This document shows positions 24,008 through 55,396 of a stretch of DNA of 64,000 nt, in pieces (the first letter of the stretch is position 1; each line of letters opens with the position of its first letter). The position numbers were made by a program, and so were the translations under genes. The stretch spans positions 16,563 through 80,562 of the IMG/VR virus record IMGVR_UViG_3300017987_000073. The stretch is one strand, 5' to 3'. This DNA comes from a virus. The notes under the pieces were generated by a model. The model did not search any database and was not told the origin of the DNA. It worked only from the letters and a program-made list of their open reading frames with translations.

Positions 24008-24270
24008 GACGCCACCCCCTCCGAGGGTTGTCCGGACGGCCCGGCCCAAAAGCCCGCCTTGCCATCGACCTCGAAGAGCTGTCGATCGGTCCTCGCCAGG
24101 TCCTCGAAGGTGACGTCCTCCGGTCGATCCTCCTTCGCACCCGGTATCACGATTCCTAGCTGCCTGGAGATCGTCTCCCGATCCGAGCACGCCTCGTTGA
24201 ACTGCGCGACGTTCGGATCAGCGGGACCCGGACCCTTCACCTGGTTCCGCCACACGATCGGTACAGACAC
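24001..24270 (-). CDS. Small hypothetical protein between kinase and ThyX-like genes
   Basis: An 89-residue protein starting at GTG (24270), 7 bases after GGAGG, which decides the start. It begins within the 3' end of the ThyX-like gene. The sequence is polar with no motif I recognise. Its tight packing suggests it belongs to the nucleotide-metabolism operon. Confidence 0.5.
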   Translation of the reverse strand: MSVPIVWRNQVKGPGPADPNVAQFNEACSDRETISRQLGIVIPGAKEDRPEDVTFEDLARTDRQLFEVDGKAGFWAGPSGQPSEGVASC

Positions 24271-25061
24271 CCGAACGCCTCCGCCGTCGTGTGCGCCCGG
24301 TGGTAGCAGCACGCCTCGACGAAGTCGCACCGCGGCCGGAGCCACTTCGAGAGGTAGGGAAACGCGTCGTCCTTCCCGAGCCTGTCCCGCAGGAGCCACG
24401 CCACCGCGACCGTGTCCTCCGCCTCGCTGAACGTCATCCGCTTGGCGCAGAGGTTCTTCAGCGCGGCGTAGTTAATCGACATCACGAACCGGTGCACGCA
24501 CGAGATCGGGAGCAACTCCCGCGCCTCCTGCCAGGAGGTCACCCCGTCCGACAGAAACTGACCGTAAGCTCGCTTCGCGTGCTCCGCCACGTCGATCGCC
24601 TTCTTCAGCTTCATCGGATCCCGCCACGTCGACTCGTGGAACCGAAAGGGGACGTCCGCGTGGTTGTTGTCCCGCGTCCCGAGCGACGCGAAGACCACCC
24701 CGAGCCTCGCCCGGGCGATCTGGTCGAAGCTCCACCTCGAGAGCCCCTGCACCGCGAAGGTGAACTTCGGCGCCTCGAGCGCCAGGGGAAGCGCCCGCCC
24801 CATAAGCACCGACCGCACCACCTCGAATCGGTGCTCCGGCTTTGTCCGATCCCACCTTATCGCCTGGTTCGAGACCGCCGATCCCCAGGTCGCCACCGCC
24901 ATCGTGAAGAGCGACCGGTAGGGGTTCATCGGCGCGTCGATCAGATCCACCTGAATCCCCTCGACCCCTCGGAAGTACCGCGTCTTGACCCGCGGCGCCT
25001 GGTGAGGGAGCGTCCCCAGTTGCTCCCGTATTTCCCTGATTATCTCCGCTCTGCTTCTCAT
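24237..25061 (-). CDS. Divergent ThyX-fold protein (second thymidylate-synthase-like gene)
   Basis: A 274-residue protein. The block WSFDQIARARLGVVFASLGTRD aligns with the ThyX signature (Q..RHR..S.N..S.RY): the outer arginines and serine survive but the histidine is replaced. Later ARELLPISCVHRFVMSINY and the LCAKRM...AEDTVAVAWLLRD segment match the ThyX C-terminal helices that bind dUMP and FAD. A canonical ThyX begins at position 198, so this is a paralogue. It could be an inactive partner or a flavoenzyme acting on another deoxypyrimidine. The ATG at 25061 overlaps the dUTPase-HAD stop. Confidence 0.65.
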   Translation of the reverse strand: MRSRAEIIREIREQLGTLPHQAPRVKTRYFRGVEGIQVDLIDAPMNPYRSLFTMAVATWGSAVSNQAIRWDRTKPEHRFEVVRSVLMGRALPLALEAPKFTFAVQGLSRWSFDQIARARLGVVFASLGTRDNNHADVPFRFHESTWRDPMKLKKAIDVAEHAKRAYGQFLSDGVTSWQEARELLPISCVHRFVMSINYAALKNLCAKRMTFSEAEDTVAVAWLLRDRLGKDDAFPYLSKWLRPRCDFVEACCYHRAHTTAEAFGCLYRSCGGTR

Positions 25062-26014
25062 CTCGACCCCTCCAAAATTCTGCTCACCTCCTCGAGCGCC
25101 CGCCCAAGGTCGGAGACCTTCGTCGCCCCCTCCACGTCGATCCCCCGGTTCAACTCCCCGGCCACCAGCACCACCCGCCGACCGATCCCCACGACGTCGG
25201 ACGCGACGACCGGGTCGTCCTCCACCATCGCCACGAGTCCCGGGAAGTCGTCGAGGATCTTCCGGTGCTTCTCCGGGTGGAAGAGGATCCCGTCGAACCG
25301 AAGTTTGTTTGAGTTGAGCCACTCCAAAGTGTCGGCGTAAATCCGACTGAAGCGCCAGTAAGGACGACGCGAGAGGAGAACCACCGTCCCACCGGCCGCG
25401 CGAATCCCGTCCAGGAGCTCCTTCGCCCCCTCCTTCACCCCCTGGAACCGTTTCTCCCCGCTCCGACGGTAGTGATCCTTGCTGATTTCGTAACCCTCCG
25501 CCCCGATACTCGCCTTCAAATCGGCTCGCGTCTCCGCGTTCACGTCGTTCGGAAGTGACTTCCGCGCGAACTTCAGGTACGAGGTCGGCCAGTCGTTAAG
25601 AACCCCGTCGACGTCCACCCCGACGATCGGGTCGCTCGGAGAGATCGCCCGGAGCCGCCGCTCCATCCCGTACCGACACTCCACGACCTGACTCTTCCTC
25701 CCGAACTCCTCGAAGACCTCGGCCGCCGTGAAGCCCCAGACGTTCGCCAGGCCCAGCAGGAACTTGAAGCAGTCGACCCACTCCTCGAGCGCGTTGGACC
25801 GCACCACCTCCCCGCCTCCGGCTTGGTGCATCTTCCAGGGCGTCTCCCGGAGGAACTCGTGGAGCTCCCCCTCCACGTGAAGAACGAATTGCTTCGTCCA
25901 CTCCACCCGGCCCGCCTTCGAGAGCTCGTCCAGGTCGAGCCGGTGGTCCTGGAACACCCTCCGATTGAACTCCCGTTGACGATCGAAGATCTCGTCCAGT
26001 CTATCCGATTGCAT
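25058..26014 (-). CDS. Fusion of all-alpha dUTPase/MazG-like domain and HAD-type phosphatase domain
   Basis: A 318-residue protein. Residues 1-120 resemble the all-alpha dUTPase/dCTPase family: VEGELHEFLRETPWK (E50, E53, E57 as metal ligands) and LEEWVDCFKFLLGL (E77, E78, D81). Residues 130-318 are HAD-like: DVDGV at 134-138 (nucleophile and acid), VLLSRRPYWR (motif II/III region) and VEDDP (motif IV). This suggests dUTP to dUMP hydrolysis coupled to a 5'-nucleotidase or related phosphatase. The start at 26014 lies within the FAD-oxidoreductase 3' end. Confidence 0.72.
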   Translation of the reverse strand: MQSDRLDEIFDRQREFNRRVFQDHRLDLDELSKAGRVEWTKQFVLHVEGELHEFLRETPWKMHQAGGGEVVRSNALEEWVDCFKFLLGLANVWGFTAAEVFEEFGRKSQVVECRYGMERRLRAISPSDPIVGVDVDGVLNDWPTSYLKFARKSLPNDVNAETRADLKASIGAEGYEISKDHYRRSGEKRFQGVKEGAKELLDGIRAAGGTVVLLSRRPYWRFSRIYADTLEWLNSNKLRFDGILFHPEKHRKILDDFPGLVAMVEDDPVVASDVVGIGRRVVLVAGELNRGIDVEGATKVSDLGRALEEVSRILEGSR

Positions 26015-26960
26015 ACAACTCCTCCGCGACGTCGTGGATCCGGATCGCGTGGTCCCACCGCGCCATCCGTCCGACGTGTCTGACCAGACCTCCCCACTCC
26101 TCCGCCTCCCTCGAGTCCCCGAGCACCTGCACCCGTGCGCTCGGTCCAACGTGCACCGCCTCGACCGCCTCGCAGAACCCCAACGGGGCGTCGATCGAGT
26201 TGAACTCGTAGACGCACCCCCGCGCGGGAGGCCCGCAGAGGAACTTCACCCGGTCGAAAAGAAGCGCCGGCTCCACGTTGTACAGAAACTCCCGAACACC
26301 CCGCCGCCGCTCCTTGGCGATCCCCACGTTGAACGGCTTCCCCACGACCCACGTCTTCCACCCCGCTGAATACTCCCGCCGATCTCGGAACCCCTGGGTA
26401 TTGGTGAATTCGGGGGTCAGAGAGTCCCAGATCGGCGCCGGGAGGGTGTTGATCACCCGAGTCGCCCGAACGGGTTCCTCCAACCCCTGGACCCGAAGAA
26501 ACGCCTCCACGGCCCCGGAGCTCGTGACCTCGAGCACGCGTCCAGGAACAATCGTCACTCGCGCCTCGAGACGCCGAACCAGTTCATCCACCGAGACGTC
26601 GAACGTCTCGATCCCACCCGAGCGCCCCGAGCTCGCCGCCGAGTCCGGAACCAGCGTCTTCAGACCCTTCAACCCTCGACTCCGGCGGTAGTAGTAGGCG
26701 CGGAGTTCCTCGGGCACTCGGTCCACCACCTCACCACCCGGGGCGATCCAACCGAACCGCACCGTCCGAGGGCGAAACCCTCCCCCTCCAACCTCCTTCA
26801 GGAGCCGCTCCGTCGCCGGAGTCCTCCACAGGTAAGTCGGGGCTAACTCCCGAAGTCGAGAATCACCACCGACGTTGTCCCCGATCACGAGGTCCGCGCG
26901 CAGTATCGCCGCGGCCACGAGCCCGACCGGACCCGCTCCCAACACCACCGTTCTGTTCAT
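26001..26960 (-). CDS. FAD-dependent oxidoreductase-like protein
   Basis: A 319-residue protein opening with TVVLGAGPVGLVAAAILRAD, the GxGxxG dinucleotide-binding fold. The middle block TRVINTLPAP is the second FAD-contact strand found in amine oxidase and UDP-galactopyranose mutase-like flavoproteins. The C-terminal GRMARWDHAI resembles the closing FAD-binding segment of that group. The substrate is unknown. It overlaps the dUTPase-HAD gene by 14 bases, so a role in nucleotide or base chemistry is possible; sugar chemistry is the main alternative. Confidence 0.62.
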   Translation of the reverse strand: MNRTVVLGAGPVGLVAAAILRADLVIGDNVGGDSRLRELAPTYLWRTPATERLLKEVGGGGFRPRTVRFGWIAPGGEVVDRVPEELRAYYYRRSRGLKGLKTLVPDSAASSGRSGGIETFDVSVDELVRRLEARVTIVPGRVLEVTSSGAVEAFLRVQGLEEPVRATRVINTLPAPIWDSLTPEFTNTQGFRDRREYSAGWKTWVVGKPFNVGIAKERRRGVREFLYNVEPALLFDRVKFLCGPPARGCVYEFNSIDAPLGFCEAVEAVHVGPSARVQVLGDSREAEEWGGLVRHVGRMARWDHAIRIHDVAEELYAIG

Positions 26961-26963
26961 GGA

Positions 26964-27674
26964 TCACCCGGAGTAACGACGCATCACGCGAAGACAGATC
27001 GCGATCACGTCCTTCGCGATCTCCCCCACGTAGAAGTAATTGGACCTCCCGAGATGACGACGCTTTCGCTCGACCGCGTCGTGAAACTCCAGCCCGTCGA
27101 TCTCGTCCAGAAAACCGTCGTCAACCGAGAAGTGGACGTTGAGACCACGACGAAACACCGCGAATCTCCTCACGAGGTTGTTGTCGTAGTAGGTCGTATA
27201 TTGACCGTTTCGCTTCTTGGTCCAGCCGTCCGGCAGGTGCTCGGCGAGCTTCTCGTTGATCTGATCCGCCTCGATCCCGGAGAGGTCCGATTGTCGGGTC
27301 TTGTCCCGCCGCTCCTTCTCCTTGCGCTCGACCTCCTCGACCACCTCGTTTCGGTCCCGACCGTCGACCTGAACCCCGACCTTCTTCGCCCGCTTCTGGA
27401 GTTCCTCGGCGTCGATCTGCGGGTCCTCCGTGTCGTCCAGCACCACCCCGCACGCCCAGCACACCTCGATATCCCCGTCGATCGGCGACTGACACTTCCC
27501 GCAGACGTAGGGAAGGTCGTGCTCCTCCTCCTCGAGCTTCTTCAGCACCTCCGTGTGGGCGGTCTGAAGCTGGCGTGCCCTGGGCTTCCACCCGAAGGCT
27601 TTCTCGCAACTATCCTTGAGGGTCTTCAAGTTCAAAACCTTGAATCGCGGTCCCTCCAGTTCCGGTGTCGTCAT
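26964..27674 (-). CDS. Hypothetical protein with zinc ribbon
   Basis: A 236-residue protein starting MTTPELEGPRF. The ATG at 27674 is chosen because AGGAGGTG lies 5 bases upstream; an ATG seven codons earlier (27695) would put that site inside the gene. CGKC and CWAC at residues about 65-85 form a four-cysteine ribbon. A charged helix and a beta-rich C-terminal domain follow. It lies 3 bases from the FAD gene. Function is not recognised. Confidence 0.55.
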   Translation of the reverse strand: MTTPELEGPRFKVLNLKTLKDSCEKAFGWKPRARQLQTAHTEVLKKLEEEEHDLPYVCGKCQSPIDGDIEVCWACGVVLDDTEDPQIDAEELQKRAKKVGVQVDGRDRNEVVEEVERKEKERRDKTRQSDLSGIEADQINEKLAEHLPDGWTKKRNGQYTTYYDNNLVRRFAVFRRGLNVHFSVDDGFLDEIDGLEFHDAVERKRRHLGRSNYFYVGEIAKDVIAICLRVMRRYSG

Positions 27675-27709
27675 CTTCACCTCCTGTCCCTTCATATCCG
27701 AAAATGTAC

Positions 27710-28297
27710 CTACTCGATCAAATCCTCGAACGCCGCTCTCAGTTCGGAGATGATCGGATCGCCCGGCTCCAGAGGTGAGTCGTCTACCTCCAGGATCTTG
27801 GCGATCACCACGCGAGCCTCCGCGCTCAGCTTGCGCTCTGCCCCCCGGATCAGGAGCTCGACCGCGAACTCCTCCTCCGTGTGGATCGACCCAAGGTCCC
27901 CGTCCGTGATCTCGGTCGGCGTCTCCGGGTTGACCAACCGGCGCGCCTGCCACCACATCGCGGTCCGCGCCGAGCACTCGACGAACGTCCCGAGCGTCAC
28001 GAGCTCCGAGACGCCCCGGATCCCGTGCTCCTCGAGCGCGTGTTCCACGAGGTCCCTCCGCTGGAGGAAGACCTCGCCGCACCTGGAGCAGAACCAGACG
28101 AATCGGCGCGTGCTCTTCGAGATCGACAGGAGACCCTCGTTCACGAGGTCGTCCGCGGTCGCGGACGGGAGGGTGGGAAACTTCTGGAGGGTGACGTTCG
28201 CGGTCCTCTTCAACCACTCCCCGTACTCGACCGCCACCTGATTAAACGTGTTGTTGCTTGGCTTTGCCCGATACTCCCTCAGCACGGACTCGTTCAT
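27710..28297 (-). CDS. Sigma-factor-like transcription protein with zinc-finger insertion
   Basis: A 195-residue protein. DDLVNEGLLSISKSTRRF resembles sigma-70 region 2 (DLIQEGxxGLxxAxxxFD). It is interrupted by a zinc-finger-like FVWFCSRCGEVF...LVEHALEEH (C-x2-C...H-x4-H). TFVECSARTAMWWQARRLV follows, like the region 2.3-2.4 helix, and a C-terminal helix (LLIRGAERKLSAEARVVIAKIL) is in the place of region 4. It may redirect host RNA polymerase to phage promoters. Its ribosome binding site is caught in a hairpin (28300-28322), hinting at translational control. Homology is moderate only. Confidence 0.5.
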   Translation of the reverse strand: MNESVLREYRAKPSNNTFNQVAVEYGEWLKRTANVTLQKFPTLPSATADDLVNEGLLSISKSTRRFVWFCSRCGEVFLQRRDLVEHALEEHGIRGVSELVTLGTFVECSARTAMWWQARRLVNPETPTEITDGDLGSIHTEEEFAVELLIRGAERKLSAEARVVIAKILEVDDSPLEPGDPIISELRAAFEDLIE

Positions 28298-28381: not shown

Positions 28382-29098
28382 CTAACCGGCGACTTGTGCG
28401 GCCTCCTCCTCCGCCTTGAGCCGAGAGAGACGCTCGTAGGTCAGGAGGACGGACCGCACGTTCGAGGCGTACCAGATCCCCCCGTTTTTCGACTTCACGC
28501 CCCGGTTGTTCAGCCGCTCGGCGATCGCGTGGTAAGGGAACCCGCTCTCCCGGAGCTGCACCATCCGCAGGAGAACCTTCATCTCGGGCCCGTGCTCGAC
28601 GAGCTGCTTCCCCTCCTTGGCGAACCCGAAGGGCGTCTTCCCGTAGACCCGCCGCTGGCGCGCGCACCGCTCCGAGGCGTCCCGGCACCTCCGGGAGATC
28701 TGCTCCCGCTCCATCTCGGCGACCGCAGCGAGGATCGTGAGGGTGAATCTCCCGTGAGGCGTCGAGGAGTCGATCTGCTCCCGGACACTCACGAACCCGC
28801 GACCAGCGCGCTGGAGCTGGGATACCAACCCCAAAAAGTCCAGCACCGACCGGGAGAGTCGATCGATCGCGTAGACGATCAGGGCGTCCGCCTCCCCGTC
28901 CAGGACCCGCTCGAACGCCTCCCGCACCCCCGGCCGGTTTAGAGACTTCCCGCTCTTCCCCTCGTCCCGGATCACGTCCACGATCTCCGCGTCGACCAGG
29001 TCGGCGTAGGACCTTATCTTCGCCTCCTGGTCCGCGAGGGAAACCCCGTTCTTCGCTTGGTGAGCCGTAGATACCCGAATATACGAGATTAGCTTCAT
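28382..29098 (-). CDS. Small serine recombinase (resolvase/invertase family with short recombinase domain)
   Basis: A 238-residue protein. The catalytic domain shows YIRVSTAHQ (nucleophile serine), YAIDRLSRS (conserved D and R of the DRLSR block) and the helix-E region LAAVAEMEREQISRR. The rest matches the start of the PF07508-type recombinase domain: YGKTPFGF and AIAERLNNRGVKSKNGGIW. It lacks the zinc ribbon and long coiled coil of large phage integrases. It could be a dimer resolvase, an inversion enzyme or a compact integrase. GGGAGGTGGAGAG precedes ATG at 29098. Confidence 0.85.
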   Translation of the reverse strand: MKLISYIRVSTAHQAKNGVSLADQEAKIRSYADLVDAEIVDVIRDEGKSGKSLNRPGVREAFERVLDGEADALIVYAIDRLSRSVLDFLGLVSQLQRAGRGFVSVREQIDSSTPHGRFTLTILAAVAEMEREQISRRCRDASERCARQRRVYGKTPFGFAKEGKQLVEHGPEMKVLLRMVQLRESGFPYHAIAERLNNRGVKSKNGGIWYASNVRSVLLTYERLSRLKAEEEAAQVAG

Positions 29099-43645: not shown

Positions 43646-46594
43646 TTAAGGCCACTCCGCGCACTCGTTGGAATCCGGTGGATCCCCGTCCGGCGGCGGT
43701 CCGATCCGAGCGTACTCGTGGGGGCAGACCGAGACGTCCACCAGTCTGCACGTCGCCTCCTGCCCGGTCAACGACGCGATCGCCAGCTTCCCCTCGTGTC
43801 TCTCGTCGTTCGTCGCCTCGAGCACCTTGTCGCCGTCCAGGAACCCCTTGATCAGGAGCGTCGGACCGGCGACTATCTCGGTCTGTACCATCAGATTGTA
43901 GTAGATATCCTCCCGGAAGTTCGCCGGGTAGACCCGCGAGTCGAGCTCGGTCCGCACGCCCCCGATCACCTTGTCCAGGTAGACCTTCCGGTTCGCCCCC
44001 AGCGGGTCGAAACCGATCGCGTGAAAGTTGTCCTCGTCGAGGTAGTCGAAGCGGAGCTCGCATCGACCGCCCGGCACGTCCGAGAACTTCACCTGGATCC
44101 ACGCCGTGAGGTTCGTCCAGTTCGCGTCGAGGTTCGCGTCCGTCTTGAACACGCACCCCGCCGGAAGCGTGATCTCCCCCGCGTCGAAGTCCTCGACCGG
44201 AGTCCCGCTCACCGTGAGCCACGCCCCCGACCGCTTGAACTTGTCCTGAAAGGCGAGCCACCGGACGAAGATACGCTCGTTCGCCGGCCTCATCACCCGA
44301 ACCAGGTTCTCGATCAGGTCGCGGTCGACGTCCCCGTCGTCCACCACCCGCACGTCCGAGCAGAACTCGTCGGGGTCCACCCCGACCCGGAAATCGTTCA
44401 GCGTGTCCGTCGAGAGCGGCGCCGGCAGCCCGAACCCGTCCGTCACGTGGCACCGGTTCGCGCTCCCGTCCCAGAAGGAGTAGACCGTCCGGACCACGTT
44501 CTTCGGGACGTACTTCACCCGCACCCGGTGGGGGACCGCCTCCGTCGTCCCGAGGAGCGTCGAGAGGTCGAAGTCCAGGGTCGGGAGCGGCCCGACGTCG
44601 TCCCAGTGCACTCCCCAGGTCTGCACCGCCGAGACGTCGTTGTAACCGAAGGTGTACCCCGACCAGGCGCTCGCCGCGAACGTCGACGCGTTCACGTTTC
44701 CGAACACGTCGATCCCGTTGATCGACGCCTTGACGTAGGTCCCCGTCCGCTGGATCCTCATCCGGTACGTCTCCCCCGCCACGAACCGGTAGTTGATCGG
44801 ACCGGCTCGCACCGTTCCTCCGGCGTCCACCAGAGCGACCGTCACGTCCGACCACTGGAGGAAGTACTCCCTCACCCCGTCCCCGAGCCCGATCCTCCAC
44901 GGGCGCCCGTTCAGGGAGACCACGTCGGTCCCCGTCCACCTCGCCCCGAACTCCGCCGCCGTCGGGTCCAGCGCGGCGTCCTCCCGCGTGTAGTAACCTC
45001 CCTCGTCGTTCCCCACGTGTTGGTCGTGGTAGAGCCGCCCCGCCGAGAGCGAGAAGTGCGTCCCCTCCGCCCCACCGTTCACCGCGTGGTACGTCCACCC
45101 CGGATCGTCCGCCGAGGGTAGGAGGTCCATCTCGAGCACCCCGTCGACCTCCAGCGCGTCGGGGTACGTCGAGGGACTCATCCCCGGCTCGTCCAGGAGC
45201 CACACGTCCGGGTAGAGCTCGGCGTGACCGATCTCCATCTCCTCGATCAGCACCCGGAAGTGGAACCAATTCAACGTCCGGACCTGCTTCGCGCTCATCG
45301 ACTCGAGCGTCTCGACCAGACCTTTCGACGTCCCCTTGTACTTCCACATCCGCGCCGCGATCGAGATCAAGCGCCGGAGGTCCGCTTCCGCCAGCCCTCC
45401 GGTCAGGTAGTCCAGCTTCGAGGTCAAACCTACGATCCACTTCAGGTACTGGAGCGCGTCCGCCGGCGTCTCCGCCGGGTCGTTGATCTTCATCAGGGAC
45501 TTGATCCGCGCGTAGGTCGCCTCCCACTCCTTCTGAGGCCCGCGGAGCCACCGCCAGACGAGCAGGTCCCCGTAGTGACGATCCAGGTCCCTCATAGACT
45601 GCATCAGGAACCGCCAGATGTCCCACGAGAACTCGGCCTCCGTCGTGAAGCTCCAGCTCTCCGTCGCGCTCAACCCCATCGCGTCCTCGACGTAGACCTG
45701 GACCAGGAACGTCGAGGACCCGTCGACCGGGTCGGTCGGGACCAGCGAGACGTTGTAACCGTTGATCGCGTTCGGGTCGATGACGCTCCCCGACCACGCC
45801 GCGTCCCAGCTCGAGCCGTCGTAGATCTCCTGCCCGTCCCAGTAGACCTTGATCAACACCACCCCGACGTTGTCCCCCACCGCGAACTCGAAGGGCCCGT
45901 CCCGCGGGACGTCCGTCGAGCCCGCCGCCGGGTCCTGGTCCGTCACGTAGGGCGGCGTCGAGTCGAGCTCCTTCGTCTCGAAGGTGTAGGAGTAGCACTC
46001 GAAGAACCGGAGCCCGTCCCAGACCTCCACCCGAACGCTGATCAGGGAGTCGTCCGGGAGGTCGCTCGGCGGCGTCAGCTCGTAGTCGAAGCCGTACTCG
46101 TCGTTCGCCGGCTTCGAGGCGCTCCAGCCGTTCTGAGCGGCCCCGTTCTCGTAGACCGACAACCACCCCCCGCCGCCCCCGTCGTCCACTGAGACCTTCA
46201 CCAGGGTGTCCTCGACCCCGATCGACTCCACGTCCGCGTGGGTCTCCCCCAGGACGTTCACCCCCCGCTTCTCCGTCTCCGGCACGATGTCCCCGAGCGG
46301 AATCACCAGCGAGAGCCCCTGCGGATCCACCTCCGTCTCGCCGGCGTAAGGCGCCAAGCTCGCCGTGATCACGTAGGGGTTGGTCTCCGGAGTCGGAACT
46401 CGCTCGATCGAGAAGCTCGTCGCCTCCCCCACGTACTCCGACCAGATCGGGACCTCCCCCTGCCGCTCCAGGTCCCCGACGAAGAGGTAACTCGCGATCG
46501 TCTCCTCGACGTACTCGTCCCCCCACAGGGGGACCTCACCCTGGCGATCCAGGGTGGCGACGTCGAAGGTCGAGGTTTTTCCGGTCCAGGTCAT
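43646..46594 (-). CDS. P2 gpI-like tail protein with Ig-like and lectin-like domains
   Basis: A 982-residue protein. Residues about 200-320 contain Ig-like strands (STPPYVTDQDPAAGSTDV and SWSFTTEAEF). Residues about 335-460 carry the tail protein I pattern: W-R-W segments, ALQYLKWIVGL, ADLRRLISIAARMWKYKGT and LVETLESM, the motif of P2 gpI baseplate proteins. The C-terminal half contains two jelly-roll or lectin-like blocks. P2 gpI is about 180 residues, so this is a much enlarged version that probably combines baseplate attachment and receptor contact. Confidence 0.65.
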   Translation of the reverse strand: MTWTGKTSTFDVATLDRQGEVPLWGDEYVEETIASYLFVGDLERQGEVPIWSEYVGEATSFSIERVPTPETNPYVITASLAPYAGETEVDPQGLSLVIPLGDIVPETEKRGVNVLGETHADVESIGVEDTLVKVSVDDGGGGGWLSVYENGAAQNGWSASKPANDEYGFDYELTPPSDLPDDSLISVRVEVWDGLRFFECYSYTFETKELDSTPPYVTDQDPAAGSTDVPRDGPFEFAVGDNVGVVLIKVYWDGQEIYDGSSWDAAWSGSVIDPNAINGYNVSLVPTDPVDGSSTFLVQVYVEDAMGLSATESWSFTTEAEFSWDIWRFLMQSMRDLDRHYGDLLVWRWLRGPQKEWEATYARIKSLMKINDPAETPADALQYLKWIVGLTSKLDYLTGGLAEADLRRLISIAARMWKYKGTSKGLVETLESMSAKQVRTLNWFHFRVLIEEMEIGHAELYPDVWLLDEPGMSPSTYPDALEVDGVLEMDLLPSADDPGWTYHAVNGGAEGTHFSLSAGRLYHDQHVGNDEGGYYTREDAALDPTAAEFGARWTGTDVVSLNGRPWRIGLGDGVREYFLQWSDVTVALVDAGGTVRAGPINYRFVAGETYRMRIQRTGTYVKASINGIDVFGNVNASTFAASAWSGYTFGYNDVSAVQTWGVHWDDVGPLPTLDFDLSTLLGTTEAVPHRVRVKYVPKNVVRTVYSFWDGSANRCHVTDGFGLPAPLSTDTLNDFRVGVDPDEFCSDVRVVDDGDVDRDLIENLVRVMRPANERIFVRWLAFQDKFKRSGAWLTVSGTPVEDFDAGEITLPAGCVFKTDANLDANWTNLTAWIQVKFSDVPGGRCELRFDYLDEDNFHAIGFDPLGANRKVYLDKVIGGVRTELDSRVYPANFREDIYYNLMVQTEIVAGPTLLIKGFLDGDKVLEATNDERHEGKLAIASLTGQEATCRLVDVSVCPHEYARIGPPPDGDPPDSNECAEWP

Positions 46595-46603
46595 CTAAGC
46601 CTC

Positions 46604-48541
46604 TCAGTGCTGCGGCGTCACCTCGGGCCACTCGAAGGCGATCCCGTCCCTGAAGTGAATGAAGTCCGACGCCCCCGAGCTCGCCTCGTCGAACGTCGTC
46701 CGGTCCCCGATCCCCTCGCGCACCGAGTAAAGTCCGGAGATCTTCCCGACGATGCTGTACAGGTTGTTCTCGTTCTGCGGGTCCGCGATCACGTAGGTCC
46801 CGGCGATCACGTCCTCCTGGGTGAAGCCCGACGCGTTCGAGCGCCGCGCGTTGCTCTCCCTCGAGCTCCACTGCGTCAGCGTGTCCGAGTACCCCGAGGC
46901 GCTCAGGTCCGCCATCCAGAGGTCCACTTGCCCGGCGCGGTCCCACCACTGGTACCCGTGCCCGACGTTCCGGCCCTCGACGTCGTACCCCCGGTTGAAC
47001 CGGTCCTCCGTCGCCTCGTAATCCGACCCCTTGCACCCCATCAGAGCCACCTGCTCCGCCGTCGCGAGCCCGTAGTCCGCCGGGATCAAGTTCGAAACGA
47101 TCGCCCCCAGGTACTGACCCCCCGTGTCGTTGTGAACCGCCACCGTGAGGTACTCGCCGGCGTCGTCCCCGAACGCGTAGAGCCAGAGGTCGTTGGAGGC
47201 GTCCGCCCCGAACTTCACCGGCCCGATCACCTTCCCCGACCCCGGAGTCCAGTCCGCGTTGGTCGAGACCCGGAACTCCAGGTGCTGGTACCCACCCTCC
47301 GCGCTCCCGCGGTAGGCGACCTCCACCTCCCATCCGTTGGCGTGCGGCGTCCGACACCGGAAGAAGTTCCCGTCCATCGACCCCATCGTACCGCCGCTCA
47401 TCCCGGAGACCCCGAACCGGGAGCTCTCGATCGTCTTGTTCCCGTGCGCCCCGTCGTAGTCGTTCGAGAGGTTCACCGTCGAGCCCGAGCGATTCGCCGA
47501 CAGCCAGTTGTGACCGTTGTACGAGTTCTTGATCATCTCCGCGATCTCGGAGGCGTCGTCGTAGTCCGGGTCCGCCACGTTGTCCACCGCGTAGTGGTCC
47601 TGCGCCAGGCTCGGGTTGTTCTTGTCCCCCGTCCCGGTCAGCCCGAGCTCGGTCCACGCCGTGCTCCCGCTGTAGGTCAGCGTGACGTTGTTCCCGTCCG
47701 AGCTCGGCGGGTCGTTCGGCTTTCCCCAGACGCTCCCGAGGTAGGTCCTCCACGTGAGGTGCTTCCCGTTCGAGTCCTCGTACCCCTTCGAGGTCGAGAG
47801 GTGGCACACCGTCTGTCCCGCCGCCGCGTTGATCTGCGAGACGATCTGCGCCCCCGTGAGCGGCGAACTTCCCGTGAAGGTGCACACCTTCGAGACCCCG
47901 CCGACCGAGAAGTTCAGCACCTTCCCCACAAGGTCGTTGTAGAACTCGAAGGGTTCCTCCGCGATCACCCCGCCCCTCCACTGGTTCGGGGAGTACGTCC
48001 CGGGGTCCTGCCGCGAGAAGATCACCACCTTCGCGTCGTTGATCGTGTCGCCGTCGTCCACCCGGATCCAGTCCCCGTCGGAGACCGTCGTCCCGTCCTT
48101 CCCCGTGATCGTTCCCGTCGCCGCCGCCGGCGTCCCCGAAATCACCCACCACGAGACCCCCGTCGTCTGCGCCGGGTACTCCGCCGCGCCCGAGCGGAAG
48201 TCCACCGTGATCCGCGTCGCGTCCGTGTACCCCGTGATCAGGTAGATCCCCGCGTTCAAGCGGTTCGCATCCGCCACCACGAGCCACGCGTTCACCATCC
48301 CCGCCGTGAACCCCGACGCCACCGTGTCCCGGAAGTCCTTGTCCGTCCCCGAGATGTTGAACTCCCCGTTCGTCCCGCTCGCCTCCTCCGTCTTGAAGTC
48401 CTCGTCCGACGACCCGTTGACGTAGTCCGTGAATCCGCAGATCTCGGTCAGGAAGTAGGCGAGACACCTCACCAAGAAGGGCGCCCCCGTCCCCGCCCCC
48501 GAGTTGCTGTCCTTGATCTCTCTGAGCCAGGTCGAGCTCAT
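46604..48541 (-). CDS. Tail-fibre-like structural protein, paralogue A
   Basis: A 645-residue beta-rich protein starting MSSTWLREIKDSNS. Blocks shared with the gene at 48543-49817 include a WLR N-terminus, W-W-V-I/G strand pairs, YVIADPQN followed by YSIVGKISG, and an ending of DGIAFEWPE type. Rich in G, S, T, D and aromatic residues as in fibres. It is probably a trimeric fibre or an adhesin-like decoration at the baseplate. It lies 9 bases from the gpI-like gene. Confidence 0.55.
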   Translation of the reverse strand: MSSTWLREIKDSNSGAGTGAPFLVRCLAYFLTEICGFTDYVNGSSDEDFKTEEASGTNGEFNISGTDKDFRDTVASGFTAGMVNAWLVVADANRLNAGIYLITGYTDATRITVDFRSGAAEYPAQTTGVSWWVISGTPAAATGTITGKDGTTVSDGDWIRVDDGDTINDAKVVIFSRQDPGTYSPNQWRGGVIAEEPFEFYNDLVGKVLNFSVGGVSKVCTFTGSSPLTGAQIVSQINAAAGQTVCHLSTSKGYEDSNGKHLTWRTYLGSVWGKPNDPPSSDGNNVTLTYSGSTAWTELGLTGTGDKNNPSLAQDHYAVDNVADPDYDDASEIAEMIKNSYNGHNWLSANRSGSTVNLSNDYDGAHGNKTIESSRFGVSGMSGGTMGSMDGNFFRCRTPHANGWEVEVAYRGSAEGGYQHLEFRVSTNADWTPGSGKVIGPVKFGADASNDLWLYAFGDDAGEYLTVAVHNDTGGQYLGAIVSNLIPADYGLATAEQVALMGCKGSDYEATEDRFNRGYDVEGRNVGHGYQWWDRAGQVDLWMADLSASGYSDTLTQWSSRESNARRSNASGFTQEDVIAGTYVIADPQNENNLYSIVGKISGLYSVREGIGDRTTFDEASSGASDFIHFRDGIAFEWPEVTPQH

Positions 48542-48542
48542 C

Positions 48543-49817
48543 TCACACCTCCCCGTTCGAGTATCCCGGCCAGCGGACCACGATCCCGTCCTGGACCATC
48601 ATCCGGTTTCGGGTCCCCCCGACCGAGAGCACCGCGAGCGCGTGCGCCTCGCGGTAGCCGTACCTCCAGTCGATATGAGGGTCGGTCGGGAACGCCCTCG
48701 TCGTCCAGTGTCCGGTCATCTTCCCGAGGAGCGCGTACCGGTTGTCGTAGTTCTGCGGGTCCGCGATCAGGTACGTCCCCTCGAAGAGCTCGAGCTTGCT
48801 CCCGATCCTCCGGTTGTGGTGAATCACGTCGAAGAGGTTCTCGTTCACGAACGAGTCCGCGTACCCCGCCGAGCTCACGTCCACCATGAAGGCGAGTTGC
48901 TGCGACTGCGACAACTCGTCCCAGTAGCGGGCCATACCGACGTACTTCTCGAAGCCCGAATCGTACCCGCGAGAGAAGAGGTCGTAGGGTGGCCCCAACG
49001 ACCCCGCCCCGTTCGACCCGCAGAAGACCAGCTTCTCGTCGTCCACCCGTCCGCTCTCGGTCTCGGTGATTCGGGCGACGATGAACCCCACCGAGCTCGG
49101 CTCGAGCTCCACTCGCCCGTTGTCCTGCTGCGTCCTCCAGCAGTGGAACCATTCCCCGTCGTAGTCCGCCTCCACGTAGAGCTTGTCCCAGGCGCTCCCG
49201 TTGGAGTGACTGAACGAGAAGAGCGGCGAGTCCCCGCTGGCGTCCCCGAGCACCTTCCCGGTCGTCGCCCACTGCCCGTCGACGGACACCTTGAACTGCA
49301 TCTCGAAGTAAAATCCCTCGTAGTGGAGGATCTGGATCGCCCACCCCGTCGTATGCCTCGACTGGAGACGCACCCAGTCGTTCGAGCTCGGGAGCTCCTG
49401 GTCCTCTCCGACGATCCACCAGTTCAGCGAGCTCGCCGCGGTCGGGAACTCGGTGGGCGCCGTCGCGAAGTCGATCTCCACGACCAAGGAACTCACCACC
49501 CGCTTGATCAGATACATCCCGGAGTTCTCCGGGTTGGTGTTGTCCTCGATCAGGATCCACCGCTGAAAGTCCGCCTGAACGAACGACGCCGCCGTCGCAT
49601 CCGTGAAGAGGAAGTCCGTCCCGGAGAGCGCCCCGTTCGTCCCGTTCTTGACCGTCGTCGTCCAGCTCTCCGCCCCCGAGTAGTTCTCCGCCTGGAAAGT
49701 GAACCCCAGGACGTACCGGACGAAACACGCGAACGCCTTGGCGGGCCAACCCTTCAGAGAGTCGTTGTAGAGACGCTCCGTGTTGAACGAGAAGCGCCGA
49801 AGCCACCTGCTAGCCAT
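48543..49817 (-). CDS. Tail-fibre-like structural protein, paralogue B
   Basis: A 424-residue protein related to the 46604-48541 product: WLRRFSFNTE start, YLIADPQN with YALLGKMTG, and a DGIVVRWPG ending. The middle is aromatic- and acid-rich (EGFYFEMQFKVSVDG, WFHCWRTQQ). It is one of four related proteins in a row, which suggests duplication and divergence for host range. Confidence 0.55.
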   Translation of the reverse strand: MASRWLRRFSFNTERLYNDSLKGWPAKAFACFVRYVLGFTFQAENYSGAESWTTTVKNGTNGALSGTDFLFTDATAASFVQADFQRWILIEDNTNPENSGMYLIKRVVSSLVVEIDFATAPTEFPTAASSLNWWIVGEDQELPSSNDWVRLQSRHTTGWAIQILHYEGFYFEMQFKVSVDGQWATTGKVLGDASGDSPLFSFSHSNGSAWDKLYVEADYDGEWFHCWRTQQDNGRVELEPSSVGFIVARITETESGRVDDEKLVFCGSNGAGSLGPPYDLFSRGYDSGFEKYVGMARYWDELSQSQQLAFMVDVSSAGYADSFVNENLFDVIHHNRRIGSKLELFEGTYLIADPQNYDNRYALLGKMTGHWTTRAFPTDPHIDWRYGYREAHALAVLSVGGTRNRMMVQDGIVVRWPGYSNGEV

Positions 49818-49820
49818 CGA

Positions 49821-51296
49821 TCAACCTCCTCCGGCCGAATCCCAGCTCGTGTACGGGAACCAGTTCCGGGCCCCGTTCCACGGGATCACGAGCCCGCCGG
49901 CGACGTGGACCCACCAGTCCGACCCCACCTTGAAGAGCCCGAGATGCTGGGTGTGAAAGTTCGTGTAGAAGACGTCCCGGAGCGTTCCGCGGTACTCCAT
50001 GTGACCGGTCGTCCGGGACTCGAGGACGACGTGCGAGCGGTACTGCTTCCCGCTGAACTGACTCCACCGCCGTCGGTGGTTCGCCATCCAGTTCCAGTCG
50101 TTCGTGTTGGTCGGGACCACCGGCGCGTTGAGAAAGTAGGTCAGGGTCGTGGTCTCGTCGTAGGAGAGCCCCACGATCCCGTCGTGCCAGGTGTGCGTCC
50201 CGTACTGGTTCGGACCGATCGGATCGTAGCCGGGGTACCGGTACCGCCCCGCCCCCACGATCACCGGCCGCGGGTCCCGGTCGGGGTAGAACGCGTCGAT
50301 CTCCCCGATCAAGGTGTAGAACCAGGCCATATAACCGTAGTCGGGAAACTTCCACCCCCGGTGGATCAGGGAGAGGTGATACTCGTCCGCCTCCGCCCAG
50401 CAGATCACTCGACTCTGACCGTCGGTCCAGTCCCCGTGATAGGTCTCGGAGGTGTACCTCGAGTCGGTCCAGACGTGCGACCCGTTGTCCCAGGATCCGA
50501 ACGGGCTCATCTCGAACTTGGGGTACCGGCTCCGCGAGGTCGAGTCCACCTCGATCTTCAGGTGGTAATCGTAGGTGATCGCCCAGTCGAACGTCGAAGT
50601 CTCGTTGACGCCCGAGGCGTTCGTGTAGGTGATCTGGGTGGCGGAGACCCGAGACGCGATCGTGAACGTCCCGTTGTTCCCCGGGTTCGTGGCTCCCGAG
50701 ACCGTGATCTCCTTCCCCACGTCCGACGTCTGAAAGTTGGCGCTGGCGTCCGTAAGCGTCGCCACCGACCCCGCCATCGCGATATCGTCCCCGACCCCGA
50801 TCCCCGCCGTCGCTCCCGCCCCCGTGGTTCCCTTCCCGGTCAGCACGACCACGTCCAAGGCGTCCGGGGTGTAGGCGTCCTCGGTTCCCCAGAGCTTCCA
50901 GTCCACCGTCTCGGCCGCCGTGAAGCCGTCTGAGTGAGGCCCCATCCTCCGGTCGATCTTCAGGGTGTAGTCGTTCCCCGCGACCGCGACGAGCTCCAGG
51001 ATCCGATAGACCCCGTCCTCCGTCTCGTCCGTGAATCCGGTCAGGATCAGGTAGCGGTCGACGTCCGCGACCGTGAAGGCGTACCCCGGGGAGGTGACGA
51101 CGATCGTCTCCGCGTCGGAGGTGAGGGCGGAGGCGCTCCCGGTCGCGTAGTAGTTGGACCACTTGGACCCCACCGCCTCGTCGTGGATCGTCCATCCCGC
51201 CACCTGGAGGAACTCCACGATCCACCGGCAGAGCGCCGCCCCGACGTTGCTCGCCGTCTTCTCGAGGTAGATCCCGTTCTGGTATCGTCTGCTCAT
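49821..51296 (-). CDS. Tail-fibre-like structural protein, paralogue C
   Basis: A 491-residue protein. It shares with the 51301-52536 product QNGIYL...CRWIVEF, GSKW, ATGS, EDAYTPDALD, the KIEVDS...PKFEMSPFGSWD block, VWTDSRYTSE and an ending of GGLVIPWNGAR type. The insert at residues about 160-230 is Gly/Thr-rich and Ig-like. These shared blocks define a protein pair of recent common origin. Confidence 0.6.
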   Translation of the reverse strand: MSRRYQNGIYLEKTASNVGAALCRWIVEFLQVAGWTIHDEAVGSKWSNYYATGSASALTSDAETIVVTSPGYAFTVADVDRYLILTGFTDETEDGVYRILELVAVAGNDYTLKIDRRMGPHSDGFTAAETVDWKLWGTEDAYTPDALDVVVLTGKGTTGAGATAGIGVGDDIAMAGSVATLTDASANFQTSDVGKEITVSGATNPGNNGTFTIASRVSATQITYTNASGVNETSTFDWAITYDYHLKIEVDSTSRSRYPKFEMSPFGSWDNGSHVWTDSRYTSETYHGDWTDGQSRVICWAEADEYHLSLIHRGWKFPDYGYMAWFYTLIGEIDAFYPDRDPRPVIVGAGRYRYPGYDPIGPNQYGTHTWHDGIVGLSYDETTTLTYFLNAPVVPTNTNDWNWMANHRRRWSQFSGKQYRSHVVLESRTTGHMEYRGTLRDVFYTNFHTQHLGLFKVGSDWWVHVAGGLVIPWNGARNWFPYTSWDSAGGG

Positions 51297-51300
51297 CCCG

Positions 51301-52536
51301 TCACCTCACGTAGAAGCACCGGCTCCCGTTCCAGGGGATCGTCATCCCCCCGATCAGGTGGAGGTACTCGTTGTTCAACCCGAAGGGCTCGACCCGCGCG
51401 TGCTCCCGACCGGTCGCCCACACCCGCCGGAGTTTCCCGCGGAGCTCCTGGTAGGAGGAATCCCGGCACTCACAGATCAGGTCGGAGATCAACCGGTCCC
51501 CGGTCAACGCCGAGTAGCGCCGGCGTCGCTGGCTCATCCAGTGGAGGTTGTCGTTCGTCGGCACGTGCGCGAGCATCAGGTGACCGTCCACCGTGGTCAC
51601 GTCGTCGTAAGTGAGCCACTTCCCGCGACCGTTCAGGTTCCCCTGGGCGTCGTACCCGAGGATCCGTGCGTCGTCCTCCCCGGGGTCGATGTTGCAGTAA
51701 TTCGACCCCTCCCAGAGCACGCACGGCTTGGCGTCCTGCGACGCGTGGAAGGTGTCGATCTCCCCGAGGTAGAGGAAGTGCCAGCAGTAATAGCCGTTGT
51801 CGTAGGTCTCCCCGTGACGCTCGAAGCGCACCATCAGGACCATACGGTCGGTGTCCCCGGCCGCCCAGATCCTCGCGCTCGGTTGGTTGTCGATCGAGTT
51901 GTAGTAGTTCGCCCACGCCAGCTCGGAGATGTAGCGCGAGTCGGTCCAGGCGTGCCCGGTGTCGTCCCAGCTCGCGAACGGCGAGAGCTGAAACTTCGGG
52001 AGTCCGAGGGTGTTGGTCCCGTAGGCGTCCACCTCGACCCGCAGGTGGAAGGAGTACCCCGAACCGGTCGTCCCCGTCCCCACGAGCACGAACCAGTCGG
52101 TCGCGTCGGGGAGGTAGGCGTCCTCGTTCCGCCAGAGGTACCAGTTCAACCCGGTGAGGTTGCAGGGGATCCCCGCGCAGTGGACCGAGTACTGGTAGTC
52201 GATCTCCACGATCTTCGTCGTGAGCACGCGCGTGATCCGGTAGATCCCAGCGAACCCCACCGGCGTGATCCCCGGGATCGTGAGGTAGGCCCCCACGTCC
52301 GAGCCCGAGAAGTCGTGAGCGTCCGTCCCGATCGAGAAGCGGTTGACGTACCCCGAGACCGACTGACCGTCCGACCCCGTGGCGACGTGGTTGTCCCACT
52401 TCGAGCCCGACTTGTCGAGGTCCGTCCACCCGAGGACCAGAGTCGCCCACTCGAAGAGCCACCGGCAGATCGCCCGGCCCGTCTGCTGCGACGCGATCGT
52501 CGGGAGGTGGAGTCCGTTCTGGAACTTGTCGCTCAT
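51301..52536 (-). CDS. Tail-fibre-like structural protein, paralogue D
   Basis: A 411-residue protein and close relative of the 49821-51296 gene: QNGLHL start, GSKWDN, ATGS, EDAYLPDATD, LRVEVDA, PKFQLSPFASWD, WTDSRYISE and the terminal GGMTIPWNGSR. It lacks the Ig-like insert of its neighbour. It is the first of the four paralogues transcribed and lies 10 bases after the AdoMetDC homologue. Confidence 0.6.
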   Translation of the reverse strand: MSDKFQNGLHLPTIASQQTGRAICRWLFEWATLVLGWTDLDKSGSKWDNHVATGSDGQSVSGYVNRFSIGTDAHDFSGSDVGAYLTIPGITPVGFAGIYRITRVLTTKIVEIDYQYSVHCAGIPCNLTGLNWYLWRNEDAYLPDATDWFVLVGTGTTGSGYSFHLRVEVDAYGTNTLGLPKFQLSPFASWDDTGHAWTDSRYISELAWANYYNSIDNQPSARIWAAGDTDRMVLMVRFERHGETYDNGYYCWHFLYLGEIDTFHASQDAKPCVLWEGSNYCNIDPGEDDARILGYDAQGNLNGRGKWLTYDDVTTVDGHLMLAHVPTNDNLHWMSQRRRRYSALTGDRLISDLICECRDSSYQELRGKLRRVWATGREHARVEPFGLNNEYLHLIGGMTIPWNGSRCFYVR

Positions 52537-52546
52537 TTAAACCCTC

Positions 52547-52924
52547 CTATCGAGCCCGGTCGGTGGTCACGATATCCTTCGCGCGGAGCACCCCGCAGAG
52601 CGTCCGGAGCACCGCCCCGACCTCGAAGTCTTTGCAGGAGTACAGGTCGAACCGGAACTCCCCGCTCGGCGGAAACGTGTGGATCGACGCGTGCGAAGTG
52701 GTCAGAACCGCGTAACCCGTGATCCCTCCCGGGTCCCTGAACTTCTCCTCCCCGAGCGCCGTCGGATCCTCCGGGACGTCGTAGAGATCCAGGTCGATCA
52801 CCTGCATCTCAGCGACTTTGGCGACCTCCAGGAGGAGGAGCTCGAGCGTCGCCTTGTCCCGCAGCACCTCAGAGGGCGCCACGCCGTCCGCGATCAGGTG
52901 TCTTCCGCTTCGGTTCAGAGTCAT
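52547..52924 (-). CDS. S-adenosylmethionine decarboxylase homologue (class 1B SpeD-like proenzyme)
   Basis: A 125-residue protein, the usual size for bacterial class 1B AdoMetDC. It starts GRHLIADG, then has a YAVLTTSHASIHTFP block and FRFDLYSC. S77 aligns with the serine that self-cleaves to the pyruvoyl cofactor, H78/H82 with the processing histidine region and C97 with the catalytic cysteine. Position 76 is threonine where SpeD normally has glutamate. AdoMetDC makes decarboxylated AdoMet for spermidine; some homologues have become ornithine or arginine decarboxylases. Its place between baseplate and fibre genes is unexpected. Confidence 0.8.
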   Translation of the reverse strand: MTLNRSGRHLIADGVAPSEVLRDKATLELLLLEVAKVAEMQVIDLDLYDVPEDPTALGEEKFRDPGGITGYAVLTTSHASIHTFPPSGEFRFDLYSCKDFEVGAVLRTLCGVLRAKDIVTTDRAR

Positions 52925-52933
52925 ATCCCCCTC

Positions 52934-55396
52934 CTACGTGCTCGGAGCCACGATCGAAACGAACACGTTGTCCGAGTCCAGCATCGGGAGCTCGGTCTCC
53001 AGGAGCTCGTTGTCCTCGCTCGGGATCGAGATGTCCACGTCGAAGCAGTTCCCCGGGGAGATCTGAAAGACCTCCGACCCGATTCTCGAGTTGGGCACCC
53101 GCCCGCCGAACGACCACACGAACTTCGTCCCGTCGGACGTCTTCGAGGTCGGGTTGAGGAGCGAGGCGAGCCGCGTCTTCACGAGGGTCTCGGTCAACGC
53201 CGAGTTGGCCTCGACGCTCATCGTAACCGGGATCAAGCGCGGCGTGAAGTTGATCACCGTCGTCTCGACGTTCTGCTGACCCACGCCCTCCACCCCGGTG
53301 GAGTCGTTCCCGTTGAAGTACTCCTCGAGTTCCTCCTTGACCGAGTTGGAGATCGAGACCCCGTTCGTCCCGACCACGACGAGCATGATCGTCTTGGGCC
53401 CGAAGCCCTCCTCGATCGCCTTCGCCCGGACGATCGGACGCGTGCCCGCGGTCGTCTCGAACGCCAGGGCCAGGTCCTCGTAATCGGAGGGCGCGGAGGC
53501 GCGGTTTCCGGTTCGCAGGGACGCCGGGCCCTCCTCCTTGACCAGGGCGAGGGACTCGTCCGAGGCGCCGTCCGCCTCCCTCCAGCCGCTCGCCGGCCGC
53601 GGGTTGGTGACCGACTTCAGGAACGCCGCCCCCTCCGCGTTGACCGTGATCGTGTCGGACCCCACGTTCCCGTCGTCGGACGCGTTGATCCGGTAGACGA
53701 ACCGGACGTTGTCCGTCCCGAGCGGCGGGATCTTGCCCCTGGTTCCGTCCCCGAACTTCACCTTCAAGGTCCCGAGGGAGTCCTGCTTCACCGTGAAGTG
53801 GCGGTCCTTGCTCCCCGAGGTCAGGAGGGACTTCCCGAGCGCCGTGAGGTTCGTCCACTCCACCTCGCCGCCGCCCTCGTCGACGTAACACTCGACCGTG
53901 TCCCGGAGACCCGGGGTCGACTGGAGCTCGAACTCCTGGCTCGGTTGACCGTTCGAGGAGACCGTCGGCTCGTTGTCCACCGTCTCGCCCTGCGTCGCGT
54001 CGATCAGGACGTACTGAGACCCCTCGTCGATCAGGATCGTGTCGATCTCCGGCTCCGCCCCCGAGCCACTCGCGTCCACCACGCGGTAGCGCAGGTAGAA
54101 GCCCTCGACGTCCTCCACCGTAACCTTCTGCCAGTTCTTCAGTATCGTCTGAGGGAGCTCGAACTCGACCTTCCCGTCCGTGTCCAGCTCGCCGATCTCG
54201 TTCGCCGTGAAGGTGAGGAAGGGGTTCCACGCAACCCCGACCGAGTAGTCCTCCGGATCCTCCGAGGGCGTCCCCGACTGCCCGAGGAACGCCGAGGTCG
54301 TGACCGCGTTCCCCGGCCCGATCCAGGTGCTCTCGAGCTCCTCGAAGACCCCGGTCGGGAGGTACGTCACCTTGACCACCGCCCCGTGGAGATCCGAGCT
54401 CCCCAGGAGGGTGGTCAGATCGAAGCGGAGCTGCGTCCCCAGGTTCGTGACGTCGTCCGGCGTCTCGTCCCCGAGGTCCGGGTCGTAGTACTCCCAGACC
54501 CCAGAGAAGTTGGCGGCGGCCCCCACGAAGGTGAAGTCCATTCGATCCCACATCACGTGGGAGCTCCCGACGTAGAGGAGGTCCCCCTCGTCCGGCCCGT
54601 CCGCCCAGGGCGAGAACGTCGGAGCCCCGGCCGAGTTGACGTCGCTCGCCCCGTTGGCGGTCCAGGCCCGGATCGTCCACGACAGACCCGTCTCGAAGAT
54701 GAACAGCGGCGTGTCGCCGCCGAGGGTGGCTTCCAGGCGGACCTTCGAGGTCGCCCCGGTCTGGAGGATCTCCGCGATCCGAAACGTCCCGTTGTTCCCC
54801 AGGATCGACCCACTGACCTGGAGTTGCTTCCCCACGTCGAGCGAGCTCACCGCCATCGCCGCGGACTCGAAGGCGTCCGGGTCCCCGACCACCGACGCCC
54901 CGTCCGTCCCGTCTCGGTCGTACTCGAGCCCGAAGACCCCGTCCACCTGGTTCGATGGTCCGACGTCGTAGGCTTCGTCCACGTTCTCGAAGGGGATCGG
55001 GTCCGAGTCGTTCTCCCGCTCCGTCTCGAACAGGGAGTCCGCCTCCAGGATCCGGACCGAGCTCGTCGGAACTTGCGTCAACTCCGCCAGGAGCTCGACC
55101 GTCGATGGCGAGTAATCCCGAAGCTGGAAGTCGATCAGCTCGAGCAGGAGTCGGACCGAGTCCTGGAGCTTCGCCGTCTCCAGGAGGTTCTCGTTCGCCG
55201 CCAGGTCGAGGAGGACGTTGTTCAGGTGCCCGACCAGGGCGAACGCCCGCTCGAGCTGGATGAAGGGCTCCTCGGCGACCTCGGAGGTGATCTCCGGCGC
55301 GTACACCCGGTTGTAGAGCCGAACTCTTCTGAGAATTTCGGCGTAATAGAATCCTGAGAACTGAAAGTCCGGGACGATTATCTTCGTGGTCGACAC
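52934..55396 (-). CDS. Baseplate J-like protein
   Basis: An 820-residue protein. The C-terminal half shows the Mu gp47/P2 gpJ plan: DNVRFVYRINASDDGNVG, VTNPRPASGWREADGASDE (NP..a.GG...E..D), RTGNRASAPSDYEDLAL and IVRAKAIEEG. These are the wedge-protein signature. The N-terminal half is larger than usual and contains beta-rich inserted domains. It forms part of the baseplate wedge that links hub to fibres. It follows two small baseplate genes and precedes the AdoMetDC homologue. Confidence 0.8.
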   Translation of the reverse strand: MSTTKIIVPDFQFSGFYYAEILRRVRLYNRVYAPEITSEVAEEPFIQLERAFALVGHLNNVLLDLAANENLLETAKLQDSVRLLLELIDFQLRDYSPSTVELLAELTQVPTSSVRILEADSLFETERENDSDPIPFENVDEAYDVGPSNQVDGVFGLEYDRDGTDGASVVGDPDAFESAAMAVSSLDVGKQLQVSGSILGNNGTFRIAEILQTGATSKVRLEATLGGDTPLFIFETGLSWTIRAWTANGASDVNSAGAPTFSPWADGPDEGDLLYVGSSHVMWDRMDFTFVGAAANFSGVWEYYDPDLGDETPDDVTNLGTQLRFDLTTLLGSSDLHGAVVKVTYLPTGVFEELESTWIGPGNAVTTSAFLGQSGTPSEDPEDYSVGVAWNPFLTFTANEIGELDTDGKVEFELPQTILKNWQKVTVEDVEGFYLRYRVVDASGSGAEPEIDTILIDEGSQYVLIDATQGETVDNEPTVSSNGQPSQEFELQSTPGLRDTVECYVDEGGGEVEWTNLTALGKSLLTSGSKDRHFTVKQDSLGTLKVKFGDGTRGKIPPLGTDNVRFVYRINASDDGNVGSDTITVNAEGAAFLKSVTNPRPASGWREADGASDESLALVKEEGPASLRTGNRASAPSDYEDLALAFETTAGTRPIVRAKAIEEGFGPKTIMLVVVGTNGVSISNSVKEELEEYFNGNDSTGVEGVGQQNVETTVINFTPRLIPVTMSVEANSALTETLVKTRLASLLNPTSKTSDGTKFVWSFGGRVPNSRIGSEVFQISPGNCFDVDISIPSEDNELLETELPMLDSDNVFVSIVAPST

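Follow-up and report, generated by a model that had tools for sequence, protein, structure and literature searches.

The speD gene and its setting

The window analysed here is a stretch of 64,000 nucleotides, covering positions 16,563 to 80,562 of the 80,562-base IMG/VR virus record IMGVR_UViG_3300017987_000073. Its tail operon contains a small gene, speD, for a homologue of S-adenosylmethionine (AdoMet) decarboxylase, set among the following features.

52547-52924, minus strand: SpeD/AdoMet_dc-family proenzyme of 125 amino acids with an ATG start (Pfam, PHROG, TIGR, fold model)
52930-52935, minus strand: AGGAGG, the Shine-Dalgarno sequence for speD, which shares bases with the TAG stop codon of the J gene (sequence)
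52543-52548, minus strand: AGGAGG, the Shine-Dalgarno sequence for the gene that follows, which shares bases with the TAG stop codon of speD (sequence)
52934-55396, minus strand: baseplate J/wedge-type protein of 820 amino acids, the upstream neighbour (PHROG 219, TIGR02243, homologues)
51301-52536, minus strand: first of four related family-less proteins, the downstream neighbour and a candidate tail or adhesin protein (paralogy by BLASTP)
46604-51296, minus strand: three further paralogues, at 49821-51296, 48543-49817 and 46604-48541 (BLASTP)
43646-46594, minus strand: Tail_P2_I (gpI-like) protein that closes the variable slot (Pfam E = 8e-7)

An earlier note, made from the letters alone, had described a full-length SpeD-like proenzyme here, and its coordinates, strand, length and start codon were correct. 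The family placement, for which it had looked to homology searches, is upheld by matches to the Pfam AdoMet_dc profile (E = 3e-17; 63.4 bits against a cut-off of 25; profile positions 1-105 of 107) and to PHROG 3125, S-adenosylmethionine decarboxylase (E = 7e-16), while the match to TIGR03330 (E = 3e-14) scores 53.3 bits, below the equivalog cut-off of 75.65. The structure prediction that the note had proposed agrees: a fold model computed with 14 viral relatives alongside the window protein reaches a mean pLDDT of 88 and was matched by Foldseek to the SpeD of Thermotoga maritima (1vr7; E = 3e-8, TM 0.74) and also to a non-processing T. maritima mutant. The window protein is a full-length class 1b SpeD proenzyme, and the family match is far beyond chance.

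The gene lies 9 nt from the J gene and 10 nt from the gene that follows, in keeping with the earlier description of about 10 bases on either side. Spliced so tightly into the tail operon, with short gaps and with Shine-Dalgarno sequences overlapping stop codons, speD should be translated with the tail genes, and its position suggests a late timing of expression. Upstream stand a tape-measure protein, a tail protein and then the J protein, which PHROG 219 (E = 6e-11) and TIGR02243 (E = 1e-27, under that model's cut-off) support as the baseplate J-like neighbour named earlier. The label of fibre for the downstream neighbour was not borne out, since the four paralogues (46604-52536) have no Pfam or PHROG match.

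Relatives of the J protein were found in 11 viral contigs at 36-67% identity, and no AdoMet_dc match occurs anywhere in these 11 records, some of which may be incomplete. The gene after J varies among related phages, with a gpI-like protein directly after J in two of them (L063, L066) and one gene between the two in others (L058/L059). As the contents from J to gpI differ among relatives, speD and the tandem of four paralogues occupy a variable slot, in which speD is a private accessory gene. Homologues of the window phage's tail genes were not found near speD in any of 148 SpeD-family and comparison stretches (1.18 Mb). In viral contig L045, speD lies close to a head-tail adaptor gene, and in cyanophage P-TIM40 it is a few genes away from the baseplate hub.

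Catalytic residues, the position before the cleavage serine, and the tree

The residues that bear on processing and substrate are encoded as follows.

52694-52696, minus strand: S77, the predicted pyruvoyl-forming serine (T. maritima S63; alignments, with Ser in 114/114 homologues)
52697-52699, minus strand: T76, the residue preceding the cleavage serine (T. maritima E62; alignment of 114 homologues)
52679-52681, minus strand: H82 (T. maritima H68, processing/catalysis; alignments, role of H68 per PMC10407285)
52667-52672, minus strand: P85-P86, at the Pro-Glu site of AdoMet decarboxylases (P71-E72; alignments)
52634-52636, minus strand: C97 (T. maritima C83, catalysis; alignments)

In a gap-free alignment to T. 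maritima SpeD, in which S63, H68 and C83 have processing and catalytic roles (PMC10407285), S77, H78, H82 and C97 fall on S63, H64, H68 and C83, and T76 falls on E62. The serine, histidines and catalytic cysteine reported earlier are therefore intact. Residue-by-residue comparison with AdoMet decarboxylases and with the SpeD of pelagiphage HTVC201P likewise finds the catalytic set kept, together with the Thr at -1 seen in HTVC201P.

How unusual this threonine is can be judged from an alignment of 114 distinct homologues, drawn from bacterial genomes, viral contigs, plasmid genes and named phages and including the window protein. At the position preceding the serine, 92 of the 114 have Glu, 21 have Thr and one, that of phiN3, has Asp, counts that describe sets gathered by sequence patterns, with related sequences non-independent, and not population frequencies. 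T76 is thus present in place of the usual glutamate, as had been noticed, but with 21 such homologues it is not an oddity. The -1 residue is coupled to the Pro-Glu motif at +8/+9 (T. maritima P71-E72), whose glutamate presumably contacts the ribose: the motif is found in 90 of the 92 Glu-1 rows and in only one of the 21 Thr-1 rows, that row carrying a deletion there. The window protein combines Thr-1 with Pro-Pro, so that the motif is lost. The -1 residue is acidic in every AdoMet decarboxylase checked here that has assay or structure proof. The window protein, which scores under the TIGR03330 cut-off and has neither an acidic -1 residue nor Pro-Glu, fails both sequence tests for a bona fide AdoMet decarboxylase. 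One phage SpeD (L130, 1009-1383) has Glu-1 with Pro-Ala for Pro-Glu, and SCR after the strand, and appears to be intermediate between the two types. SpeD proteins are common in phages: one short pattern is matched by at least 566 homologues in IMG/VR.

According to the alignment, Thr also precedes the serine in HTVC201P SpeD, an assayed arginine decarboxylase that has undetectable activity on ornithine or lysine and does not rescue spermidine (PMC9992855). Thr-1 is thus compatible with self-processing, and across a large phage branch to which HTVC201P belongs it is the standard residue. The SpeD-derived ornithine decarboxylases (SpeDC) are marked by Gln, Thr, Phe and Tyr (PMC10407285). With their positions placed from HTVC201P, T76 and Y95 are present in the window protein and A72 and I81 appear to replace the Gln and Phe of HTVC201P, so that it cannot confidently be filed as SpeDC. 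The SpeD-derived arginine decarboxylases (SpeDA) are marked by the loss of one Pro that is invariant in AdoMet decarboxylases (PMC10407285); the window protein has both P65 and P85, the position of the lost Pro not being given in the text of that paper.

In a maximum-likelihood tree, a split supported at 100/97 sets 23 Glu-type rows apart from the remaining 21, among which the window protein falls; an earlier, smaller tree had also recovered this split (99/93). HTVC201P, accompanied by near homologues, is the only characterised arginine enzyme in the tree. The SpeD of phiN3, a true AdoMet decarboxylase that restores spermidine in Escherichia coli and is without Pro-Glu (PMC9992855), falls on the window protein's side, in agreement with the published tree. 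The nearest relatives of the window protein are L102 and L104, at 41% identity over the BLAST match, and the three have in common TTSH, HT(W/F)P without Glu, and SCK; a single clade of the three is not rejected (p-AU 0.52). No relative exceeds about 41% identity, the tree has long branches, and where precisely the window protein belongs within the Thr-1 side is uncertain.

At the DNA level, no relatives were found in the phage collection, and no assayed ornithine-type phage sequence was found in it with the L029 query. A cellular donor was also sought. The one scan of genome contigs gave L032 alone, from a genome in which AdoMet_dc finds no match, and in the phylum of that genome all 20 loci read, from 297 genomes, have Glu-1, so that no donor was found.

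Proposed function and its alternatives

It is somewhat probable, on the strength of the motif and the tree branch, that the window SpeD is a self-processing pyruvoyl-dependent decarboxylase that has exchanged AdoMet for ornithine and/or arginine as its substrate. Self-cleavage of the proenzyme would fall between T76 and S77, and S77 would become the pyruvoyl group, steps that we infer from what is established of the family's chemistry and from the residues being intact. The enzyme would then release CO2 from ornithine, giving putrescine, or from arginine, giving agmatine, which host enzymes may convert to putrescine. Co-translation with the late tail genes could thereby raise polyamines during DNA packaging and virion protein synthesis. 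One Pseudomonas phage increased putrescine and gained in replication efficiency (PMC11898732), and a benefit of this kind is what we would expect for the window phage. The pointer in the earlier note to homologues that decarboxylate ornithine or arginine has gained ground, the protein lying with HTVC201P on the Thr-1 side of the 100/97 split. Against the ornithine/arginine reading count the apparently absent Gln and Phe markers, the presence on the same tree side of the AdoMet decarboxylase of phiN3 (its -1 residue acidic, Asp), the want of a pathway-extending gene on the contig, and the low identity and long branches.

The spermidine synthase (speE) family was not found on the contig, which fits an enzyme that does not serve SpeE. 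Nor were the agmatinase/arginase families or a deoxyhypusine-synthase-type gene found there, and any product would thus feed host pathways. The contig has two Thy1/ThyX-family genes, a strong one (148 bits) at 16011-16583 of L031, reaching window base 21, and a weak one (51 bits) in a cluster at window positions 23432-28297. This cluster, which also contains genes resembling those for thymidylate kinase and dUTPase and one whose product opens with GxGPVG, a nucleotide-binding-like motif, is possibly an unusual pyrimidine or base-modification cluster. Hypermodification to putrescinyl-thymine, which would use putrescine, was considered for it and rejected, with no match to a pyrophosphorylase or transferase family up to E 5 among the scanned genes. 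The window further encodes a class II, B12-dependent ribonucleotide reductase (2261-4972), an NAD-dependent epimerase/dehydratase-like protein of just 227 amino acids (6668-7351), an N6/N4 DNA methylase (11677-12543) and a serine recombinase with a resolvase domain (28382-29098), the last hinting at a possible temperate lifestyle.

The earlier note had offered polyamine supply, AdoMet depletion and structural recruitment as functions; among the three, polyamine supply would fit best. True AdoMet decarboxylation, with a product that feeds a host spermidine synthase or a drain on AdoMet that weakens host methylation-dependent functions, is unlikely, though it is the family's best-known activity, P85 of the motif is retained, and phiN3 SpeD, on the same tree side, is active despite its lost Pro-Glu (PMC9992855). 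Both Glu-1 and the following Glu are missing from the window protein, unlike AdoMet decarboxylases with an acidic -1 residue, and this disfavours depletion in particular; the contig is without speE, and the phage's own N6/N4 DNA methylase would need AdoMet, so that depletion would also hurt the phage. Still less likely is a pyruvoyl enzyme acting on a substrate other than AdoMet, ornithine or arginine, in which case the window protein, L102 and L104 could form a new specificity class. Thr-1 with a kept Pro, a lost Glu and neither Gln nor Phe marker fits no characterised group, and the clade of three is not rejected; however, nothing positive points to another substrate, and assayed relatives use AdoMet, ornithine or arginine and leave lysine unused (PMC9992855, PMC10407285). 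Quite improbable is a more ambitious version, in which these three proteins are a distinct SpeD class with a substrate specificity of its own and the window enzyme, made with the baseplate, might travel in the virion, to supply polyamines at packaging or to act on entry into the next host.

For a structural or assembly recruit, a SpeD fold serving as a tail or baseplate part after loss of enzyme function, we see little room. Its appeal is the location: speD has a baseplate gene on one side and four tail-region genes on the other, and stop codons there overlap ribosome-binding sites. However, the processing and catalytic residues are all kept, and the gene is not conserved at the same place in related tail modules, being missing from the 11 phages with related baseplate genes, several of which have J followed by the gpI-like gene directly or after other genes; these two observations disfavour the structural role, and a conserved one is unlikely. 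The closest SpeD relatives checked also have other surroundings, with helicase and ssDNA-annealing genes adjoining in L102/L103, for example. A decaying or inactive passenger acquired by the phage is very improbable: speD is private to the window phage among its relatives and its GC3 of 0.856 is in the 10th percentile of the phage's genes, but the frame is open, the Shine-Dalgarno strong and the codon use phage-like, and the catalytic residues are intact at about 30-40% identity to relatives. Overall, the earlier observation is confirmed, and its interpretation is partly supported.

Comparison with known systems

It is now appreciated that phages carry polyamine enzymes of their own, and the window case adds a divergent one whose expression with tail genes suggests a need late in infection. 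Phage SpeD homologues with ornithine or arginine decarboxylase activity have been described from pelagiphage HTVC201P, a Lake Baikal phage and UCP01-04 (PMC9992855). The window protein resembles these enzymes in its class 1b length and fold, its Ser/His/Cys set, the lack of speE and its side of the tree, and it has the Thr before the serine that was checked for HTVC201P. In contrast, the HTVC201P gene adjoins ribonucleotide reductase and replication genes and not a tail operon, and the window protein has neither Gln nor Phe, keeps Pro85 and is only about 18% identical to its HTVC201P counterpart. With the bacterial and archaeal SpeDC and SpeDA (PMC10407285) it has in common the Thr (position 2) and Tyr (position 4) of the SpeDC set, but not the Gln (1) and Phe (3) as placed from HTVC201P, nor a surrounding polyamine gene cluster. 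In Persicobacter plasmid pPP3 (L078, 1342-2783), speD and the beginning of a gene of the agmatinase family overlap, which suggests an arginine decarboxylase despite the annotation as adenosylmethionine decarboxylase.

Class 1b AdoMet decarboxylases, namely T. maritima TM0655 and those of phages S-PM2 and P2559S, are alike in fold (TM 0.74), in S/H/C and in HT(W/F)P, whereas the window protein has Thr for Glu-1 and Pro for Glu72 and is split from them in the tree at 100/97. A parallel in setting is Moorella phage MTATph1 (OR602862; L075, 1504-1860), whose speD is likewise part of a structural operon; it comes right after the gene for the tail sheath and is flanked by two genes that carry the annotation major head protein, but its product has Glu-1 and Pro-Glu, as in AdoMet decarboxylases, and the flanking genes differ. 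Substrate-shifted phage SpeD homologues were thus already reported in 2023 (PMC9992855, PMC10407285). New here are the slot in the tail operon, the divergent branch shared with L102 and L104, and the coupling of Glu-1 with Pro-Glu as a practical predictor, a simple rule by which phage genes annotated as S-adenosylmethionine decarboxylase can be flagged where the annotation is probably wrong on substrate.
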